A stretch of 64,000 nt of DNA from Bacteroidia bacterium. Its GTDB lineage: Bacteria > Bacteroidota > Bacteroidia > Flavobacteriales_D > Cryomorphaceae. The DNA lies in the NCBI GenBank assembly GCA_030427905.1, contig JAUICL010000008.1, positions 1-64,000 of the forward strand, read 5' to 3'. The position numbers and the translations under genes were made by a program. Below, in pieces: positions 560-63,916 of this stretch. The notes below the pieces were generated by a model that had not been told where the DNA came from, searched no databases, and worked only from the letters and a program-made list of their open reading frames with translations. Each line of letters opens with the position of its first letter. The first letter of the stretch is position 1.

Positions 560-632
560 TGATGTATAGCTCAATGGAAGAGCAATCCGAAGCATTTCGG
601 AAGGGTAAACGGTTCGATTCCGTGAACATTAC
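560..632 (+). pseudogene. tRNA-like element (degenerate tRNA) in the 16S-23S spacer
   Basis: A third tRNA-shaped segment follows tRNA-Ile and tRNA-Ala. The D-arm is intact (GCTC 569-572 with GAGC 580-583, loop containing GG). The T-loop TTCGATT sits on a four-pair stem plus one A-G mismatch, and the acceptor TGATGTA/AACATTA pairs at six of seven positions. The anticodon arm TCCGA-AGCATT-TCGGA has only a six-base loop, and CCA is not encoded. If read as a tRNA, the triplet GCA would be the nearest anticodon. It is flanked by imperfect 16-base direct repeats (528-543 and 634-649). Most likely a decayed or duplicated tRNA, although a structured processing element is possible. Confidence 0.5.
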
Positions 633-7081: not shown

Positions 7082-8368
7082 TCAAGTCTTCTGATGCTTC
7101 TTCTTAGCCGCAGGGAAGAGAATATTATTCAAAATCAGCCTATACCCCGGGCTATTTGGATGAAGATTCAAATCTGTGGGTGGATCTCCAACACGGTGCT
7201 GGTAGTCTTCTGGGTCGTGACCACCATAAAATGTCCACTGGCCATTTCCAAAATTACCGTGAATGTATTTGACGGTGCCTTGCGTTTTACTCTCACCCAT
7301 TATGATGACGTTCTTCTTGACATACTGCTTCTTGAAAGCCGTGGTTTGTCCCATAAAGCCTTTCACTACAGACTGGTGATTTTGGACGAGCATGGTCGGA
7401 ACGATATCCCACTTAGCTGAAAAATCAAAAAGGGTAAAGAAGTCTTGAAGCTGTGGTGTCTTGTTGTGAATATCAGTGGCGTCTATACTCGAAAACTCAT
7501 ACACCAAGGGATCTTTTTCTAAAATGAAATTCTCGAAGGCAAAGGTGTGATGAAAATGGAGCTTCGATTGTGCAGCTGGGTCTGCGGGGTCCCCATCGTA
7601 CATGCTCTCACAAATATCGGTTTCCTGGGCTGCTAGGGCAATGTCGTAGGAATCTGTTCCCGAGCACATCGTAAACAAAAAGCCGCCACCGGCTGTGTAT
7701 TCTTGTATTCTTTGAGCTACGGCAAATTTGAGTCGGCTCACCTTTGCGAAGCCCATGTCGGCAGCTTCAGCTTCGGCATCTCGCACTTGCTGCTGGTACC
7801 AGGCAGCATTTTTATAGCTCCTGTAGAATTTTCCGTACTGCCCCGTAAAGTCTTCGTGGTGGAGATGAAGCCAGTCGTACTTGTGAAGCTCCAGATTGAT
7901 GATTTCCCGATCATAAATCACATCATAAGGAATCTCCGCATAGGTCATAACCAAGGTCACGGCATCGTCCCAAGGCATTTTTGACGAGGGAGAGTAAACC
8001 GCAATTTTAGGTGCTTGCTCTAGTTTTACGGTTTCCATATTGACTTCAGGGTCGGCTATTTCAGCCAAAATACCCTGAGCTTGTACATCGGCAATTATTT
8101 GGTACGAAACGCCTCGAATCACGCACTCTTCTTCGATGGCCTTGTACTGATCTATCATAAAGCTACCCCCACGGTAGTTAAGTAGCCAGCGCACTTCAAT
8201 ATTATTGTCCAATACCCAATAGGCAATTCCATACGCTTTCAGGTGATTTTCTTGCCGATCGTCCATCGGGATAAGGATCTTCGCTCCAAATGAAGAAAAT
8301 CCGATCAGGAAAAAAGCTACGAAAAAAGTCGCTCTGAGTAATATGCTCTTAAAAAGGTGCGTCATCAT
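7082..8368 (-). CDS. Exported GATase1-like protein of unknown function (dnaB neighbour)
   Basis: About 428 residues from the chosen start at 8368 (a longer frame begins at 8398). The start lies inside the last codons of dnaB, so translation is probably coupled. A signal peptide (FFVAFFLIGFSSFGA) precedes a conserved-looking block KILIPMDD...HLKAYGIAYWVL...WLLNYRGGSF. Later GGGFLFTMCSGTDSYDIAL has the look of a class-I glutamine-amidotransferase-like nucleophile elbow (Cys245 counted from the 8398 start), and the end GNGQWTFYGGHDPE recalls the closing strands of that fold. I recall relatives in Flavobacteriia labelled 'asparagine synthetase B', but the sequence shows no AMP/PPi-loop domain, so that label is not supported. 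Function unknown. Confidence 0.7.
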   Translation of the reverse strand: MMTHLFKSILLRATFFVAFFLIGFSSFGAKILIPMDDRQENHLKAYGIAYWVLDNNIEVRWLLNYRGGSFMIDQYKAIEEECVIRGVSYQIIADVQAQGILAEIADPEVNMETVKLEQAPKIAVYSPSSKMPWDDAVTLVMTYAEIPYDVIYDREIINLELHKYDWLHLHHEDFTGQYGKFYRSYKNAAWYQQQVRDAEAEAADMGFAKVSRLKFAVAQRIQEYTAGGGFLFTMCSGTDSYDIALAAQETDICESMYDGDPADPAAQSKLHFHHTFAFENFILEKDPLVYEFSSIDATDIHNKTPQLQDFFTLFDFSAKWDIVPTMLVQNHQSVVKGFMGQTTAFKKQYVKKNVIIMGESKTQGTVKYIHGNFGNGQWTFYGGHDPEDYQHRVGDPPTDLNLHPNSPGYRLILNNILFPAAKKKHQKT

Positions 8369-9890
8369 CTGTGTCATTCGAGAAATGGTCACCGCCATCT
8401 TCGTTCATTCTCGATTGCATCGTGATGGTATTAAATTGATCGTAATCGCCACCAGCACTTGGGAAATCATTTGATTCACCGAATGCTACATCGAGGTTAT
8501 CAAATTTCGCGAATTCTTTGATAAACTTCAAAGAAACCGTCTCGAGACCTCCATTTCGGTGCTTGGCAATAATTACCTGCCCAACTCCCATCATCGAATT
8601 TCCATCTTCGTCTTGCGTAATGTCGTAGTACTCCGGACGATAGATAAACGAAACGATATCCGCATCCTGCTCAATCGCACCAGATTCACGAAGGTCAGAA
8701 AGCATAGGCTTTTTGTCACCTCCACGTGTTTCTACGGCACGACTCAACTGTGATAGGGCAAGAATAGGCACGTTCAATTCTTTTGCAATCGTTTTGATAG
8801 AACGCGAAATAGTAGAGATTTCTTGTTCACGGTTACCTTTATCGTTTCCCGCGGTCATCAGCTGAAGGTAGTCGATGATGATACACTGAATATTGTGCTT
8901 GGATTTCAATCGTCGAGCCTTGGCTCTCAATTCAAAAACAGAAAGGGAAGGCGTGTCATCGATGTAAATCGGGGCTTTAGCCAATTTCTTAATTCGAGTG
9001 TGCAATTGGGTAAACTCGTGATCTTCCAAGGTTCCTTTTCTCAGCTTTTCTCCCTTGATACCCGTTTCACCAGAAATCAAACGATTGACGAGCTGCACGG
9101 ATGCCATCTCGAGTGAGAATACGGCAACCGGCACGTTGAAGTCAACAGCCATGTTTCGCGCCATAGACAGTACAAATGCCGTTTTACCCATACCTGGACG
9201 AGCGGCAATAATAATCATGTCGGATTTTTGCCAACCCGAAGTAACGCGGTCTAGCGCAGTAAACCCGGTAGGTACTCCACTAACACCGTCACTGTTTTTC
9301 TTAGCAGCTTCAATGCTCTCGATCGCTAGTTTGAGCACGTCACCCATGGTATCGTAATCCTTTCGAATATTTCCTTGAGCTACCGTAAACAGGTCGCGCT
9401 CTGCTTTGTCAAGCAGCTCGAAAACATCGGTGCTCTCTTCGTACGCATCGCGGATGGTGTCAGAAGAAATGCGAATCAATTCTCTCAGAATGTGTTTTTG
9501 AGAAATAATTCGAGCATGATATTGGATGTTTGCAGAGCTGGCTACGCGGTTTGTCAAGAAGCTGATGTAGTAGGCACCACCTACCAGTTCCAGTTCTCCA
9601 CGCTTCCTGAGTTCCGCAGTTACGGTCAGAATGTCAATGGGTTCAGACCGTTGAAAGAGCTCCTGAATGGCTGCATAAATCTTCTGATGCGTTTCTTTGT
9701 AGAATGAAACCGGCTTTAAAATGTCGATAACGTCATTTACTGCTTCTTTTTCTAACATTAGCGCTCCCAATACAGCTTCTTCTAAATCAACTGCTTGAGG
9801 GGGGATTTTCCCGAGATCATTGTTTTGATTAGGAAAAGCTCCACGTTTGGCCCTTCGGCCTTCGCCTAATTTTTGCGAAATTTCATCCAT
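8349..9890 (-). CDS. dnaB: Replicative DNA helicase DnaB
   Basis: 513 residues, slightly longer than the E. coli protein. The N-terminal collar domain occupies about 30-130 (PPQAVDLEEAVLGALM). The RecA-like motor follows, with Walker A ARPGMGKTA at 230-238, Walker B IIIDYLQLM and the DLRESGAIEQDAD block near the end. It is the hexameric helicase that unwinds DNA ahead of the polymerase. No intein interrupts the P-loop. The acidic tail DDDAPF resembles the C-termini of other replication proteins. A -7 box (TATCTTTG, 9895-9902) lies exactly four bases before the ATG, which predicts a leaderless transcript. Confidence 0.97.
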   Translation of the reverse strand: MDEISQKLGEGRRAKRGAFPNQNNDLGKIPPQAVDLEEAVLGALMLEKEAVNDVIDILKPVSFYKETHQKIYAAIQELFQRSEPIDILTVTAELRKRGELELVGGAYYISFLTNRVASSANIQYHARIISQKHILRELIRISSDTIRDAYEESTDVFELLDKAERDLFTVAQGNIRKDYDTMGDVLKLAIESIEAAKKNSDGVSGVPTGFTALDRVTSGWQKSDMIIIAARPGMGKTAFVLSMARNMAVDFNVPVAVFSLEMASVQLVNRLISGETGIKGEKLRKGTLEDHEFTQLHTRIKKLAKAPIYIDDTPSLSVFELRAKARRLKSKHNIQCIIIDYLQLMTAGNDKGNREQEISTISRSIKTIAKELNVPILALSQLSRAVETRGGDKKPMLSDLRESGAIEQDADIVSFIYRPEYYDITQDEDGNSMMGVGQVIIAKHRNGGLETVSLKFIKEFAKFDNLDVAFGESNDFPSAGGDYDQFNTITMQSRMNEDGGDHFSNDTDDDAPF

Positions 9891-9894
9891 GCTT

Positions 9895-9902
9895 CAAAGA
9901 TA
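9895..9902 (-). promoter_or_regulatory. -7 promoter element of dnaB
   Basis: TATCTTTG on the minus strand matches the Bacteroidota TAnnTTTG -7 box perfectly. Only four bases separate it from the dnaB ATG, so transcription should begin at or next to the start codon. No convincing -33 TTTG was found at the usual spacing. Confidence 0.6.
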
Positions 9903-12277: not shown

Positions 12278-12285
12278 CATCTTTG
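12278..12285 (+). promoter_or_regulatory. -7 promoter element of ispE
   Basis: CATCTTTG (one mismatch to TAnnTTTG) is followed by four bases and the ispE ATG. The 14 bases ATCTTTGCACCATG are identical to those at the purK start. This predicts a leaderless or nearly leaderless mRNA. Confidence 0.5.
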
Positions 12286-12289
12286 CACC

Positions 12290-13108
12290 ATGCTGGTTTT
12301 TCCAAATAGCAAAATCAACCTAGGGCTTAGGGTGTTAGATAAGCGAGAAGATGGGTATCATAATATCGAGAGTATTTTTTACCCTTTTCCATATTGCGAT
12401 GCACTCGAAGTGGTAGAGAATGATCTGAGCAATGATCGGTTTTTCTATTCGGGTAGGCCTATTCCTGGAGATTCAAAAGACAATCTCATATCGAAAGCGA
12501 TAGCCGCCTTGCGACAAGATTACGAGATACCATTTCTCGATGTGCATCTCCATAAAAACGTAGCTATGGGAGCTGGCTTAGGTGGTGGCTCTGCAGACGG
12601 AACTTATATGCTGAAGTTGATTTCTGAAAAATTCAATCTCGCATTGAGTCATGACAGTCTAGAATCACTGGCTTTATCGCTGGGAAGTGACTGTCCGTTT
12701 TTTGTTGCCAATAGACCTGTGTTGGTGACGGGCCGGGGTGAGATTATGAAACCTATTGATCTGAATCTTTCTGGAAAATGGCTTGTTCTTGTCACTTCAG
12801 AAATTCATATTTCAACTGGTGCTGCGTATTCAAATATTGTTCGAAATCCATTTAAACGCGATTTGGAAGGGATTATTGAAGCTCCATTGGACGAATGGAA
12901 ACAGGATATGAAAAACGATTTTGAAGGCTACGCATTTCAGCAGTTTCCTGCACTTGGTTCGATCAAACAGGCCCTGTATGATGCTGGTGCTTCGTACGCT
13001 TCTATGACTGGAAGTGGATCGGCGATGTTTGGAATTTTTGAGCAAGAGCCAGATTCTGCTCAAATCGAAATTCCGCAAAAAGGTGAGCTCCAAATTTTCA
13101 AGCTCTAG
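12290..13108 (+). CDS. ispE: 4-diphosphocytidyl-2-C-methyl-D-erythritol kinase
   Basis: 272 residues, GHMP-kinase family. It phosphorylates CDP-ME in the MEP pathway to isoprenoid precursors. The three family motifs are visible: PNSKINLGLRVLDKREDGYH at the N-terminus (Lys8), the ATP-binding GAGLGGGSAD (94-103) and the C-terminal SMTGSGSAMFGIF. The start is set by the ATG directly after PNSK-type upstream spacing and by the -7 box four bases before it. It is convergent with the downstream LptF/G gene, one base apart. Confidence 0.95.
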   Translation: MLVFPNSKINLGLRVLDKREDGYHNIESIFYPFPYCDALEVVENDLSNDRFFYSGRPIPGDSKDNLISKAIAALRQDYEIPFLDVHLHKNVAMGAGLGGGSADGTYMLKLISEKFNLALSHDSLESLALSLGSDCPFFVANRPVLVTGRGEIMKPIDLNLSGKWLVLVTSEIHISTGAAYSNIVRNPFKRDLEGIIEAPLDEWKQDMKNDFEGYAFQQFPALGSIKQALYDAGASYASMTGSGSAMFGIFEQEPDSAQIEIPQKGELQIFKL

Positions 13109-37272: not shown

Positions 37273-38232
37273 TCATTTCCTGAGCTTTATGATATCGCCA
37301 GGCATGATTCTCGACTGCTCACTTAGGCCATTGTACTTGCAAAGTTTCTTGATTTTCACACCATACATTTGAGAAATGCTTCGCAATGTTTCTCCCGTGG
37401 CTACAGTATGCGTTTGGTGCGTTTTCGACTTTCCTTTCTTGGGTTGGATGTAGATCCGATCGCCTTTGTCAATTCGTTCGCCCTTGCTCAGGTCATTGTA
37501 TTTTAAAACCTGCCATTCACCAAGTTGGAGCGTTTCCGCCAGTTCGCGAGTCGAAATATCTCGATCGGCTAGCACGTATTTGATGCCATTGTCACTTACG
37601 AATACTTGCGAACTTTGACCTCCCAATACAATTTCAATTTCCCCCGACTGATTACCAGGTTTTGGGGTGGAAGTCGAGCGAGAAGGTTCTGACTTCAGGC
37701 GCCCTTTTTTCAATCCTTCACGATCGTATTGCGTCAGGTTATTTTCTTCGATTATTCTTATGAGCAGGGCTGGGTACTTCGGATTCGTCGCATAGCCTGC
37801 CTTCTTGAGCCCTTTTGCCCACGATTTGTAATCTGTTATTTTATAGTCAAATAGAAAGGCGTATCGGCTGCGTTTTAGAAAGTGGCTGTGGTCTTCAAAA
37901 CTTTGGTGGGCTGTTTTGTACTTGCGAAAACACTCCTGTTTCTTGTCGTCATCGTGGTATACCTTCTTACCCGTCCACCCGTGACATTTGATCCCGAAAT
38001 GGTTATTTGCTTCTCGGGCTAATTGGCTATTTCCATCCCCGCTTTCCAAAATACCCTGTGCCAAAGTGATGCTCGCTGGAATTCGGTGCTCGCGCATTTG
38101 CCTTATCGCTTCATCTTTCCACTGATCGATGTATTGAGCCCGGGTAATTCGTGTAGGAGAATTACCTTCTGCATGGGCATAAGAGCTCAGGCAGAAACTG
38201 ATTAATACAAAGCAAATTAGGGTTCTCAACAT
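37273..38232 (-). CDS. Glucosaminidase-domain peptidoglycan hydrolase with LysM repeats
   Basis: 319 residues from ATG 38232 (MLRTLICFVLISFCLSSYAHA is a clean signal peptide; a longer frame from 38349 adds 39 residues and is unlikely). The GH73-type glucosaminidase domain is at about 30-175: ASITLAQGILESGDGNSQLAREANNHFGIKCH carries the catalytic glutamate, followed by FRKYKTAHQSFEDHSHFL and AGYATNPKYPALL. Two LysM-like segments occupy the C-terminus (about 218-262 and HTVATGETLRSISQMYGVKIKKLCKYN to the end). It should cleave glycan strands of peptidoglycan in growth or separation. Confidence 0.93.
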   Translation of the reverse strand: MLRTLICFVLISFCLSSYAHAEGNSPTRITRAQYIDQWKDEAIRQMREHRIPASITLAQGILESGDGNSQLAREANNHFGIKCHGWTGKKVYHDDDKKQECFRKYKTAHQSFEDHSHFLKRSRYAFLFDYKITDYKSWAKGLKKAGYATNPKYPALLIRIIEENNLTQYDREGLKKGRLKSEPSRSTSTPKPGNQSGEIEIVLGGQSSQVFVSDNGIKYVLADRDISTRELAETLQLGEWQVLKYNDLSKGERIDKGDRIYIQPKKGKSKTHQTHTVATGETLRSISQMYGVKIKKLCKYNGLSEQSRIMPGDIIKLRK

Positions 38233-38342: not shown

Positions 38343-39287
38343 TTAACAATCGGCGAAAAGTGGTTCACCGATTCGCTCTTCCATTGCCGGTATTCCCTGT
38401 AGCCCTCCGGTGTGGATAAACAGCCATTTTTCACCTTCAATTCCATCCAACGATTTGGCCGTTTCACATAACGCAAAAAATGCCTTTCCCGTGTATACGG
38501 GGTCCAATTTTAGTCCGGTCAGCCCATGTATATTCCTGATGAAGTCAATGAGCTCAGTGGAAACTTTGGCATAACCACCAAAATGGAAGTCTAAAAGGTA
38601 AGTCAACTTTGCCTTCACATCGGCTTCGGTTTCTTCATCCACCAAAAACTCGGATACATAACGGCTTACGTCTTCTTCAATAAATCCACCATTCTTCAAA
38701 ACAGGAATGGAGTACAACGATGCGTTTTGCCTGTTCCCGAGCGCCATTCCGGCGAAGGTGGTGCCCGTACCCGATGCCACAAATACGCGGTGGTAAGACT
38801 CTTCCAGTTCACTCATGATTTCCATGCAGCCATTCACCCCGTAAAAGTTGGCTCCCCCTTGGGGTATCACATAGGCATTGCCATAAACTTCTCGCAGTGA
38901 TTCCAGATAGTCGCGTGTGTCGATTCCGCGGAATTCCGACCTCGAAACACGTTGAATTTCCATGCCCATCTCTGCCGCGAACCACAGGGTTGGGTTGCTC
39001 AAATCAACTTCCTCGCCACGGATGATCCCGATGGTCTTAATTCCGAAAGCCTTTCCGGCAGCCGCTGTGGCCGCAATATGGTTGGAATGCGCCCCACCAA
39101 ATGTGATGATCTGCTGGTTTCTTCTCTTCTGTGCCTGAGCGATATTCCACTTGAGTTTCCGCCATTTGTTTCCAGAAATGTCCGGGTGAATCAAGTCATC
39201 TCGCTTAACGAAAACTTCCACTCCCTTTTCCTTAAAAAGGGGCAGTTCGATGCGCTCAACTGGCGACGGAAGTTGAAATAAATTCAT
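38343..39287 (-). CDS. PLP-dependent ACC deaminase / D-cysteine desulfhydrase family protein
   Basis: 314 residues, fold-type II PLP enzyme. The PLP lysine is in ISGNKWRKLKW (about Lys41), followed by QIITFGGAHSNHIAATAAAGKAFG, FVASGTGTTFAGM (phosphate loop) and LDPVYTGKAFFAL, and near the end LFIHTGGLQGIPA. This is the ACC deaminase/D-cysteine desulfhydrase group. Whether it degrades 1-aminocyclopropane-1-carboxylate or D-cysteine cannot be told; the latter is commoner outside plant-associated bacteria. A TACCTTCG box lies exactly four bases before the ATG. Confidence 0.85.
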   Translation of the reverse strand: MNLFQLPSPVERIELPLFKEKGVEVFVKRDDLIHPDISGNKWRKLKWNIAQAQKRRNQQIITFGGAHSNHIAATAAAGKAFGIKTIGIIRGEEVDLSNPTLWFAAEMGMEIQRVSRSEFRGIDTRDYLESLREVYGNAYVIPQGGANFYGVNGCMEIMSELEESYHRVFVASGTGTTFAGMALGNRQNASLYSIPVLKNGGFIEEDVSRYVSEFLVDEETEADVKAKLTYLLDFHFGGYAKVSTELIDFIRNIHGLTGLKLDPVYTGKAFFALCETAKSLDGIEGEKWLFIHTGGLQGIPAMEERIGEPLFADC

Positions 39288-39291
39288 TTCC

Positions 39292-39299
39292 CGAAGGTA
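39292..39299 (-). promoter_or_regulatory. -7-like element of the ACC deaminase-like gene
   Basis: TACCTTCG on the minus strand (one mismatch to TAnnTTTG) is followed by four bases and the ATG, the same geometry as dnaB, ispE, rnhB and purK. Confidence 0.45.
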
Positions 39300-39815
39300 G
39301 TAATGGTTCGGGAAAGTACGCCAATAGCTAGTCTTGATGTGTTCCGTATTTCCGCCTTAATGCGTGTCGCCGAATCCGCCTAAGACGGAGAAGGAGCAGG
39401 CGGAGCTACGGTCTTTAAAAATCGCCAATCGATGTTACGTGTTCTGAAATCCTCGAAACCCCTTTCGTTGGATCGTGATTGTTAATTATCATTGATTCGT
39501 TGTTCATTCATTTGGTCTCGTCCCTACAGGACTTTATCGCATAGAATCCAGTCGCATCCGGTTTCACCGAATGCTAACGTCTTTCGCCCTTTCAGGGCTG
39601 GATTTAATTTAGGGCGTAAAGAATGAAAATGGAATTGGAATTTTTTCCGCTCCGCAGTAGCTGCGCTGCTGCGGCAATTACTACAAAACCGTTAATCGAT
39701 CTTCTAAACTCTGAGATCACTAAAGCCCTTGAAACCCATTATAGCGGTTATGATCTTAATACATAGTACTTGATACTTTGTACATTTTGAAAACCTATAG
39801 CCTTATCTTCGCGCC
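39300..39815. repeat. Repeat-rich intergenic region, no gene
   Basis: About 500 bases without a supportable gene. It contains a degenerate TCCGCCTAAGACGGA/AGGCGGAGCTACGG element (39374-39411) related to the CCGCCTTAGGCGG palindromes at 2831 and 3824. There is also a TCGTCCCTACAGGA...GCCCTTTCAGGGC block (39518-39598) of a type scattered through Bacteroidota genomes, and a hairpin CCGCAGTAGC-TGC-GCTGCTGCGG (39652-39674). The rnhB -7-like box (TATCTTCG, 39804-39811) closes the region. Probably a landing site for small palindromic repeats. Confidence 0.6.
39804..39811 (+). promoter_or_regulatory. -7-like element of rnhB
   Basis: TATCTTCG (one mismatch to TAnnTTTG) is followed by CGCC and the rnhB ATG, so the predicted transcript is leaderless or nearly so. 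Confidence 0.45.
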
Positions 39816-40409
39816 ATGGCCAAATTATTGAGTTGTCTAGAAAAAGGAAGAGTCGAAGCGGGAGTGGATGAAGCAGGGCGCGGATGCCTGAGTGGGCCAG
39901 TCGTGGCTGGTGCGGTCATACTTCCCGAAGGCTGGAACCATCCTTTGCTCAACGACTCGAAACAATTGACTGAAAAGAAACGCAACGTGCTCCGACCGAT
40001 CATCGAAGCCGAAGCAATGGCCTGGGGCGTTGGATTTGTTTTTCCAGAACGGATAGATGAAATTAACATCTTGCAAGCGAGCTTTGAAGCTATGCATCTA
40101 GCCATTCGTCAGTTGAATGTGAACCCCGATCACATACTCGTAGATGGAAATCGCTTCCGGCCATTCGACCAAATTGGGCACACCTGTGTGATCAAAGGAG
40201 ATGGCAAGATTCGGAGCATCGCAGCGGCTTCTGTTTTAGCCAAGACTCATCGTGATGAGTACATGGAGAAAATTCATCAAGAGTTTCCCATGTTTGAATG
40301 GTGTTCGAACAAGGGCTATCCCACCAAAAAACACCGGGAAATCATAGCATCTTACGGCGCTACACCTTACCACCGAAAGAGTTTTGCCCTGCTGCCGAAG
40401 GAGCCGTGA
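39816..40409 (+). CDS. rnhB: Ribonuclease HII
   Basis: 197 residues, normal size. It cleaves RNA in RNA-DNA hybrids and removes single ribonucleotides. The active-site DExD pattern is visible in AGVDEAGRGCLSGPVVAGAVIL (Asp18, Glu19), with the further aspartate in ILVDGNRF and the C-terminal AAASVLAKTHRDEYM and NKGYPTKKHREIIASYGATPYHRKSF. It is followed 89 bases later by the DUF3352 gene. Confidence 0.96.
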   Translation: MAKLLSCLEKGRVEAGVDEAGRGCLSGPVVAGAVILPEGWNHPLLNDSKQLTEKKRNVLRPIIEAEAMAWGVGFVFPERIDEINILQASFEAMHLAIRQLNVNPDHILVDGNRFRPFDQIGHTCVIKGDGKIRSIAAASVLAKTHRDEYMEKIHQEFPMFEWCSNKGYPTKKHREIIASYGATPYHRKSFALLPKEP

Positions 40410-61661: not shown

Positions 61662-62810
61662 TTACTGTGTTTTTACGACTACTGTCGATTTAACTTCGTT
61701 TGCCAGGCGCTTTACTTCACCAACCGTGTCGGCAGTGATGGTGACATGGCCCATCTTGCGAAAGGGTTTTGTTGTTGATTTTCCATACAGGTGCGGATAC
61801 ACACCCGGCAGCCCAAGAACTTTTTCCAAGCCTTCGTAATACGCTTCGCCAGTATAGTCCGGAGCACCCAGAAGGTTTACCATTCCCGCCGGTCTTACTT
61901 GATCTGTGCTTCCAAGCGGTAGGCCTAAAATGGCTCTCAAATGTTGGGCGTACTGCGATGTGACGTTACCTTCTATGGTTTGGTGACCAGAGTTATGAGG
62001 GCGCGGTGCCACTTCGTTTACTAGGATGTCACCATCCTTCGTCAAGAAAAGCTCTACGGCAAGTAGACCAACAAATCCGAAAGCTTCAATCGTTTTCATG
62101 GCTACGCTTCGCGCCTTTTCATCGATGCTATCAGAAATCTCTGCTGGAGCAAAAAGCAGCTCAACCAGGTTTGCCTCTGGGTTGAATTCGAGCTCCACCG
62201 TAGGAAATGCTTTTACTTCTCCATTGGCACTTCGAGCTACAATAACTGCGAGCTCTTTCTCGAAGTCCACAAACTGCTCTAGGACAGATGGGGCATCAAA
62301 AGCCTTCTCAAAATCTTGTTCTGAACGTATGATCGACACTCCTTTCCCGTCATAGCCACCTTTGCGTAGTTTCTGAGCAAAGGGTAGTAGATCTCTTCGC
62401 TCCATGGCTTCTGCCTTATCGTTGACTAGGGCGTATGGAGCTGTCGGGATATTGTTTTTTGAATAGAATTCTTTTTGAAGCCCTTTATCCTGAACGATCG
62501 CGAGTAGATCGGGCTGCGGGTAAACTGGAATTCCAGAATCTTCCAGTTCCTTCAGCGCTTCAATATTGACATGCTCTATTTCAACAGTGATCAAATCCTT
62601 GTCTTTTCCAAAATCCAAGACTGTCTGCTTGTCTTTAAAACTGCCGTGAACAAACTCGTGTACGATTTGGTGACACGGTGCATTTTCATCTGGATCAAGA
62701 GCCGCAATCTTCACGTCGAGATCAATGGCTTCCTGAAGGAGCATTCTACCCAGTTGACCACCGCCTAGAACGCCTAATTTGAAATCTTTCTGATAGGGTT
62801 TTCGAATCAT
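61662..62810 (-). CDS. purK: 5-(carboxyamino)imidazole ribonucleotide synthase
   Basis: 382 residues from ATG 62810 ([24 protein letters not shown]); a longer frame from 62858 would cross the promoter. The N-terminal Rossmann-like domain, ATP-grasp domain ([41 protein letters not shown]) and metal-binding [17 protein letters not shown] are as expected. It carboxylates AIR with ATP and bicarbonate. A perfect -7 box (TATCTTTG, 62815-62822) lies exactly four bases before the ATG. Confidence 0.95.
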
Positions 62811-62814
62811 GGTG

Positions 62815-62822
62815 CAAAGATA
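62815..62822 (-). promoter_or_regulatory. -7 promoter element of purK
   Basis: TATCTTTG on the minus strand, a perfect TAnnTTTG box, followed by CACC and the ATG. The segment ATCTTTGCACCATG is identical to the ispE start. It predicts a leaderless transcript. The hairpin at 62868-62902 lies just upstream. Confidence 0.6.
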
Positions 62823-62867
62823 ACCGACCGGAGATATTTTCCGTGTGATCAAAATCACAAACAGCGA

Positions 62868-63298: not shown

Positions 63299-63379
63299 AT
63301 GAGTCATCATCCAATTCAAGGGACTTCTAATCAGATAAGACCTTATTATCATTACCTTCGCCTATCTATTTTTAATCGA

Positions 63380-63916
63380 ATGGAAGCAATTCAGGTTCTA
63401 GACAAATCGTTCGTCCCATACCTCTCACACAAAGAGATTTTATCTCGAATTGGAGAAATCGCCAAAGAGATTGACCAAAATTATCCCAACTCAGCCCCTT
63501 TACTTTTGGGCGTGCTCAATGGTAGCTACCGTTTTCTGGCTGATTTATCCGCTGCGCTTCAATCTGATTGTGAAGTTCAGTTTATCAAGGTGAAAAGTTA
63601 TTCGGGCACGGAATCGACTGGTAAAATGCGCGAAGTAATGGGCCTTGATGTCGATGTGGCGGGTCGAGATGTGATCGTTGTCGAAGATATTGTAGATACC
63701 GGCCACACCATGGAATACCTGATCGGCGAGCTCAAACGCGCCAACCCGAAATCGATAGAAATAGCGACTTTACTTTACAAGCCCGACGCGTATAAGGGCA
63801 ATCACAAAATGACTTACTGTGGGTTTGAGATCCCCAACCTTTTTGTAGTGGGCTACGGCCTCGATTACAATGAGAATGGCAGGAATCTCAACGACATATA
63901 CCAAATCAAATCTTAA
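63380..63916 (+). CDS. hpt: Hypoxanthine phosphoribosyltransferase
   Basis: 178 residues from ATG 63380 (MEAIQVLDKSFVPYLS; a longer frame from 63299 adds unrelated residues). The PRPP-binding motif VIVVEDIVDTGHTMEYL and the flanking LLGVLNGSYRFLADL, KVKSYSGTESTGK and VGYGLDYNENGRNL are characteristic of HPRT. It salvages hypoxanthine (and guanine) to nucleotides. adk starts three bases after its stop, so the two purine genes form an operon. A weak -7-like TACCTTCG lies at 63352-63359. Confidence 0.94.
   Translation: MEAIQVLDKSFVPYLSHKEILSRIGEIAKEIDQNYPNSAPLLLGVLNGSYRFLADLSAALQSDCEVQFIKVKSYSGTESTGKMREVMGLDVDVAGRDVIVVEDIVDTGHTMEYLIGELKRANPKSIEIATLLYKPDAYKGNHKMTYCGFEIPNLFVVGYGLDYNENGRNLNDIYQIKS

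Follow-up and report, generated by a model that had tools for sequence, protein, structure and literature searches.

Leaderless or very-short-leader mRNAs are already known in Bacteroidota, where published reports put them at about 4–13%. In flavobacteria with mapped start sites, 5.5% of the mRNAs of F. psychrophilum are leaderless (PMC9723704), and 87% of the predicted leaders of F. johnsoniae are longer than 10 nt, with about 13% at 10 nt or below (PMC6847099). The same studies place the promoter box of F. psychrophilum at −12 to −5 (PMC9723704) and many start sites of F. johnsoniae 4 or 5 nt past the −7 element (PMC6847099). The genome considered here shares with these two species the phylum, a TAnnTTTG box located 4–5 nt from the start site, and a minority class of leaderless or very-short-leader genes, whereas their start sites come from RNA data and ours are predicted. 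Conserved leaderless status at particular genes is not discussed in the accessible parts of either report, and dnaB and purK are unnamed in those of the F. johnsoniae paper (PMC6847099).

In Bacteroides thetaiotaomicron, about 3.7% of 5′ UTRs are shorter than 10 nt by dRNA-seq (PMC7366714). This is likewise a minority class in a member of the Bacteroidota, but its named examples are transposases, sensor kinases, and transporters and not dnaB or purK (PMC7366714). The TA-led genes of Zheng et al. (2011) follow the same logic, in that a leaderless mRNA is implied when a box lies ~12 bp ahead of the start codon; unlike the present analysis, that study searched with the sigma-70 box TANNNT. Of 37 Bacteroidetes/Chlorobi genomes, 1 showed the class, and the authors cautioned about undercounting in this group (PMC3160421). 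The Bacteroidota's own box reveals a leaderless class that the sigma-70 box scan nearly missed. What is added here is a spacing peak of near single-base width obtained with the phylum's own box and, at the level of sequence, the class-wide recurrence of the corresponding layout at dnaB and purK. No paper describing conservation of this layout at dnaB or purK was found in a literature search of partial coverage.

Experimental Procedures

The window, that is, the whole stretch of 64,000 nucleotides under analysis, was combined with 60 further stretches of 20 kb from the same genome, giving a sample of 1.264 Mb (33% of 3.81 Mb). Gene starts were taken from a home-made codon-periodicity caller that is blind to upstream signals (866 genes, 78% of bases), so that absolute percentages of genes with the layout are rough. 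Spacing was defined as the number of bases between the end of the −7 box and the ATG, N4 denoting four bases, and the start-anchored pattern was TAnnTTyG. The controls comprised 300 dinucleotide shuffles, reversed and complement patterns, adjacent spacings, and the background at spacings 50–100. For the wider sets of dnaB and purK orthologues, start codons were picked blind to the box.

Results and Discussion

Five genes in the window with a box four bases before the ATG

The sites and the genes that they precede are as follows.

62815..62822, minus strand: purK −7 box TATCTTTG, by direct reading
62811..62814, minus strand: purK spacer CACC, box to ATG, by direct reading
61662..62810, minus strand: purK coding sequence, ATG at 62810-62808, start set by orthologue alignment from residues 1–3
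9895..9902, minus strand: dnaB −7 box TATCTTTG, spacer AAGC at 9891-9894
8349..9890, minus strand: dnaB coding sequence, NCBIfam equivalog
12278..12285, plus strand: ispE imperfect −7 box CATCTTTG, spacer CACC at 12286-12289
12290..13108, plus strand: ispE coding sequence, NCBIfam equivalog
39292..39299, minus strand: −7 box TACCTTCG of the ACC-deaminase-like gene, spacer GGAA at 39288-39291
38343..39287, minus strand: coding sequence of the ACC-deaminase-like / D-cysteine desulfhydrase-like PLP enzyme, PF00291
39804..39811, plus strand: rnhB −7 box TATCTTCG, spacer CGCC at 39812-39815
39816..40409, plus strand: rnhB (RNase HII) coding sequence, NCBIfam equivalog

PurK, DnaB, IspE, and RNase HII all scored above their NCBIfam equivalog cut-offs. 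The remaining protein is a PF00291 PLP enzyme whose best model is the ACC-deaminase-related/D-cysteine desulfhydrase group, with a score under that model's cut-off.

An earlier note on this DNA had described five genes carrying TAnCTTyG-N4-ATG. The four-base spacing held in all five and the pattern itself in four, the exception being ispE, in which the first base is C instead of T (CATCTTTG). The other boxes conform to the −7 element TAnnTTTG, exactly so in dnaB and purK, which are the only perfect matches, as had been stated, and with TTCG in place of TTTG in rnhB and the ACC-deaminase-like gene. The 14-mer reported as common to ispE and purK, ATCTTTGCACCATG, is real; C follows the box in 49% of leadered promoters, so the identity is largely promoter consensus plus ATG. 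A common regulator of ispE and purK was rejected, the spacer being unconserved and a C after the box being frequent in all promoters of the sampled genome.

The window contains five matches to TANNTTYGNNNNATG against a shuffled mean of 1.41, and 2 of 100 shuffles reach five. Four of the matches are those at dnaB (9888-9902, minus strand), the ACC-deaminase-like gene (39285-39299, minus strand), rnhB (39804-39818, plus strand), and purK (62808-62822, minus strand), and the fifth, at 37364-37378 (plus strand), starts no called gene. Five sightings of a short degenerate pattern in 64 kb could be a product of chance, and the window count is in fact only mildly unusual. Likewise, the unanchored count over the whole genome showed no excess (98 vs 108 for the reversed control); such counting is without power because most pattern matches precede no gene.

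The box peaks at a single spacing before start codons

When matches were anchored on gene starts in the 1.26 Mb sample, the picture was different. TAnnTTyG stood at spacing 4 before 19 of 861 predicted starts, with 3, 5, 6, and 6 cases at the neighboring spacings 3, 5, 6, and 7. Spacings 8–13 formed a trough (0–4 each), followed by a broad hump at 14–38. The background at spacings 50–100 was 1.33 per position, giving a Poisson P of ~5e-16 for the peak. Reversed and complement patterns gave 2 and 0 cases at spacing 4, and dinucleotide shuffles gave 0.7–0.8, the highest value among the 300 being 4. The excess over shuffled sequence that the earlier note had prescribed for a genome scan was thus present in start-anchored form in one third of the genome. 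The peak stayed when the 5′-most ATG was taken as the start (21/860), and it recurred in two further families of the order, at 10/244 and 7/279 genes, where the background was 0.49 and 0.31 per position, respectively.

Box distances in this genome are bimodal, promoters either abutting the start codon or lying at a distance that leaves room for an ordinary leader, and the trough at 8–13 together with the hump at 14–38 is the mark of ordinary leadered genes. The four-base layout is not due to chance in the sampled genome. With the window excluded, the box still stood at spacing 4 before 15 of 817 starts, compared with 0.72 in shuffles, and this result together with the orthologue conservation described below makes a chance origin of the five sites extremely improbable; it is already refuted for dnaB, purK, and rnhB, while a single weak member may yet be a chance match. 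By strict consensus, the layout covers about 2% of called genes, and with one-mismatch boxes it perhaps occurs in 3–4%.

TAnnTTCG was enriched at leadered distances in this genome, with 25 cases at spacings 14–25 over a background of 0.35 per position, indicating that TTCG is a tolerated variant and backing the rnhB and ACC-deaminase-like boxes. At exactly spacing 4, TTCG occurred only twice in the sample, both times inside the window. The ispE box is of the type CATnTTTG (12278-12285), and its C at the first position is kept in relatives (loci L157–L160 and L233). Boxes with C at the first position showed no general peak at spacing 4 in the genome sample, suggesting that the ispE promoter may be weak or specialised.

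Promoter or translation signal

A fixed distance from the ATG could also arise if TTTG-N4-ATG were an element of the mRNA that guides translation initiation, as a Kozak-like or ribosome-protein site, and no promoter at all. Bacteroidota do tune initiation through near-start bases, namely, A-3, A-6, and A-12/13, according to the F. johnsoniae study (PMC6847099). However, the motif exactly matches the known promoter box, including its avoidance of G in the center; the identical box is enriched at spacings 14–38, where its distance to the ATG varies; and the box forbids an A at −6, contrary to the known translation preference. On these grounds, we regard a translation element as barely credible.

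Base composition around the start was consistent with the promoter reading. C occupied position −1 in 52% of N4 genes compared with 22% of leadered genes, and a pyrimidine was found there in 74% of N4 genes; this bias is what an initiator would be expected to show if the A of the ATG is the first transcribed base. The frequency of A-3 did not separate N4 from leadered genes. No −33 element (TTTG/TTG) stood out when base composition was compared ahead of leadered and N4 boxes, a point against the promoter reading; in F. johnsoniae this element is also weak (PMC6847099).

The layout is conserved in orthologues

Homology at the protein level fixes the start codons, orthologues having an ATG at the same aligned place. 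In PurK, the next Met is residue 23, within the conserved GGGQLGRM stretch.

For dnaB, box-N4-ATG was found in seven of eight family genomes, the eighth having N5. It was also present in 9 of 25 genomes in other families of the order, where three more had N5 and four had N7. In the rest of the class, 7 of 24 genomes had N4. Several dnaB orthologues carry the box 7 bases before the ATG (L193, L194, L198, L204, L266, and L276), and some of these spacers are all-pyrimidine, e.g., TCCCCTT, which could move +1 onto the A of the ATG or leave a 3-base leader.

For purK, among the seven family genomes with a usable start, four had N4 and two had N5. More widely (Flavobacteriales, Cytophagales, and other Bacteroidota), 25 of 66 loci had N4 and a further 6 had N5, counts that include many related genomes and are not independent events; neighboring genes in the same loci showed N4 in only 2 of 169 cases. 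The sequence of the purK spacer was not conserved.

For the other three genes, conservation of the layout is mainly within the family. At rnhB, all five family genomes in which the ATG aligned had N4, four of them with TTCG. The ACC-deaminase-like gene had N4 in four of five aligned family genomes and N5 in the fifth, and CATnTTTG-N4 preceded ispE in four of five family genomes with a readable start. Outside the family, the rnhB and ispE layouts were lost, with scattered exceptions.

In ungapped comparisons of dnaB and rnhB, identity was 0.80–0.81 in the box, 0.27–0.30 in the 36 bases upstream, and 0.35–0.42 in the four-base spacer. Such a pattern is the footprint left by a promoter under constraint, at a distance that is constrained as well.

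Predicted leaderless transcription

The published box-to-start distance of 4–5 nt in F. johnsoniae and F. psychrophilum places +1 on the A of the ATG when the spacing is N4. The proposal of the earlier note that transcription begins at or beside this A is supported by the spacing peak, the published box distances, the orthologue footprints, and the pyrimidine-rich −1 position. Under this model, the five sites would be promoters of the Bacteroidota housekeeping sigma factor (sigma-ABfr), with exactly four bases separating the −7 element from the start codon. RNA polymerase would start at the A of the ATG, giving an mRNA with no 5′ leader or one of about one base at most, and the ribosome would initiate on the 5′-terminal AUG, with Shine–Dalgarno pairing unneeded. 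SD-like motifs preceded only 23 of 862 genes, though the 16S end keeps CCTCC, indicating that translation in the sampled genome does not by default go through SD pairing. The boxes, the sharp preference for N4, the conservation in orthologues, and the −1 bias are observed, whereas we infer both the start site and initiation at a 5′-terminal AUG. The five genes are very probably leaderless through a −7 box at N4.

An alternative is that the main promoters lie further upstream, or that readthrough supplies these genes, so that the N4 box provides a minor or secondary start and most of the mRNA is leadered. Most promoters in this genome are of the leadered class, and dnaB carries an additional box (TACCTTCG), 30 bases before its ATG. 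This additional box, however, is missing from family relatives in which the N4 box is kept, and dnaB, ispE, and purK have divergent neighbors upstream, which limits readthrough. We consider upstream initiation as the main source improbable. Second promoters could nevertheless be a source of leadered mRNA.

The spacing peak defines a discrete predicted leaderless class in a Bacteroidota genome, with near single-base precision and from sequence alone. It also yields a short gene list for 5′-terminal AUG initiation in bacteria that hardly use Shine–Dalgarno pairing, and TAnnTTyG-N4-ATG may serve as a cue for start-codon annotation. More tentatively, leaderless expression of particular core genes, above all dnaB and purK, might be of ancient origin in the class Bacteroidia and have been maintained by selection; output of the replication helicase and of purine synthesis would then depend on a distinct initiation route. 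We think this rather unlikely. If true, the 5′-terminal AUG route could come under control separate from that of leadered mRNAs, e.g., during stress or starvation.

Other box-N4 genes and side observations

Other genes with box-N4-ATG in the sample encode a purine nucleoside phosphorylase, CinA, a RarA/MgsA-like AAA+ recombination factor, a sigma-54 response regulator, and a histidine kinase. The first four are located as follows.

L016:1962-2780: purine nucleoside phosphorylase
L017:7509-8768: CinA
L050:6877-8151: RarA/MgsA-like
L023:1730-3103: sigma-54 response regulator

It is possible that box-N4 genes lean towards repair and purine functions.

The half-kilobase at 39300-39803, which separates rnhB from the divergent ACC-deaminase-like gene, contained no ORF of at least 90 aa lying wholly inside it and gave no Rfam match. 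Elsewhere in the window, ARAGORN made a third tRNA-like call in the 16S-23S spacer, at 560-632 (plus strand), after tRNA-Ile and tRNA-Ala. The call has a two-base anticodon and is without Rfam support, and it is probably spurious.

Upstream of purK, a perfect CRP-like palindrome TGTGA-N6-TCACA, TGTGATCAAAATCACA, lies at 62844-62859. It was rejected as a regulatory site: it is the sole copy in the 1.26 Mb sample, which is about the chance expectation, and family relatives do not show it upstream of purK, so that it is probably a chance occurrence. A hypoxanthine phosphoribosyltransferase gene (63299-63916, plus strand) is divergent from purK, and purine salvage and synthesis genes thus share one intergenic region.
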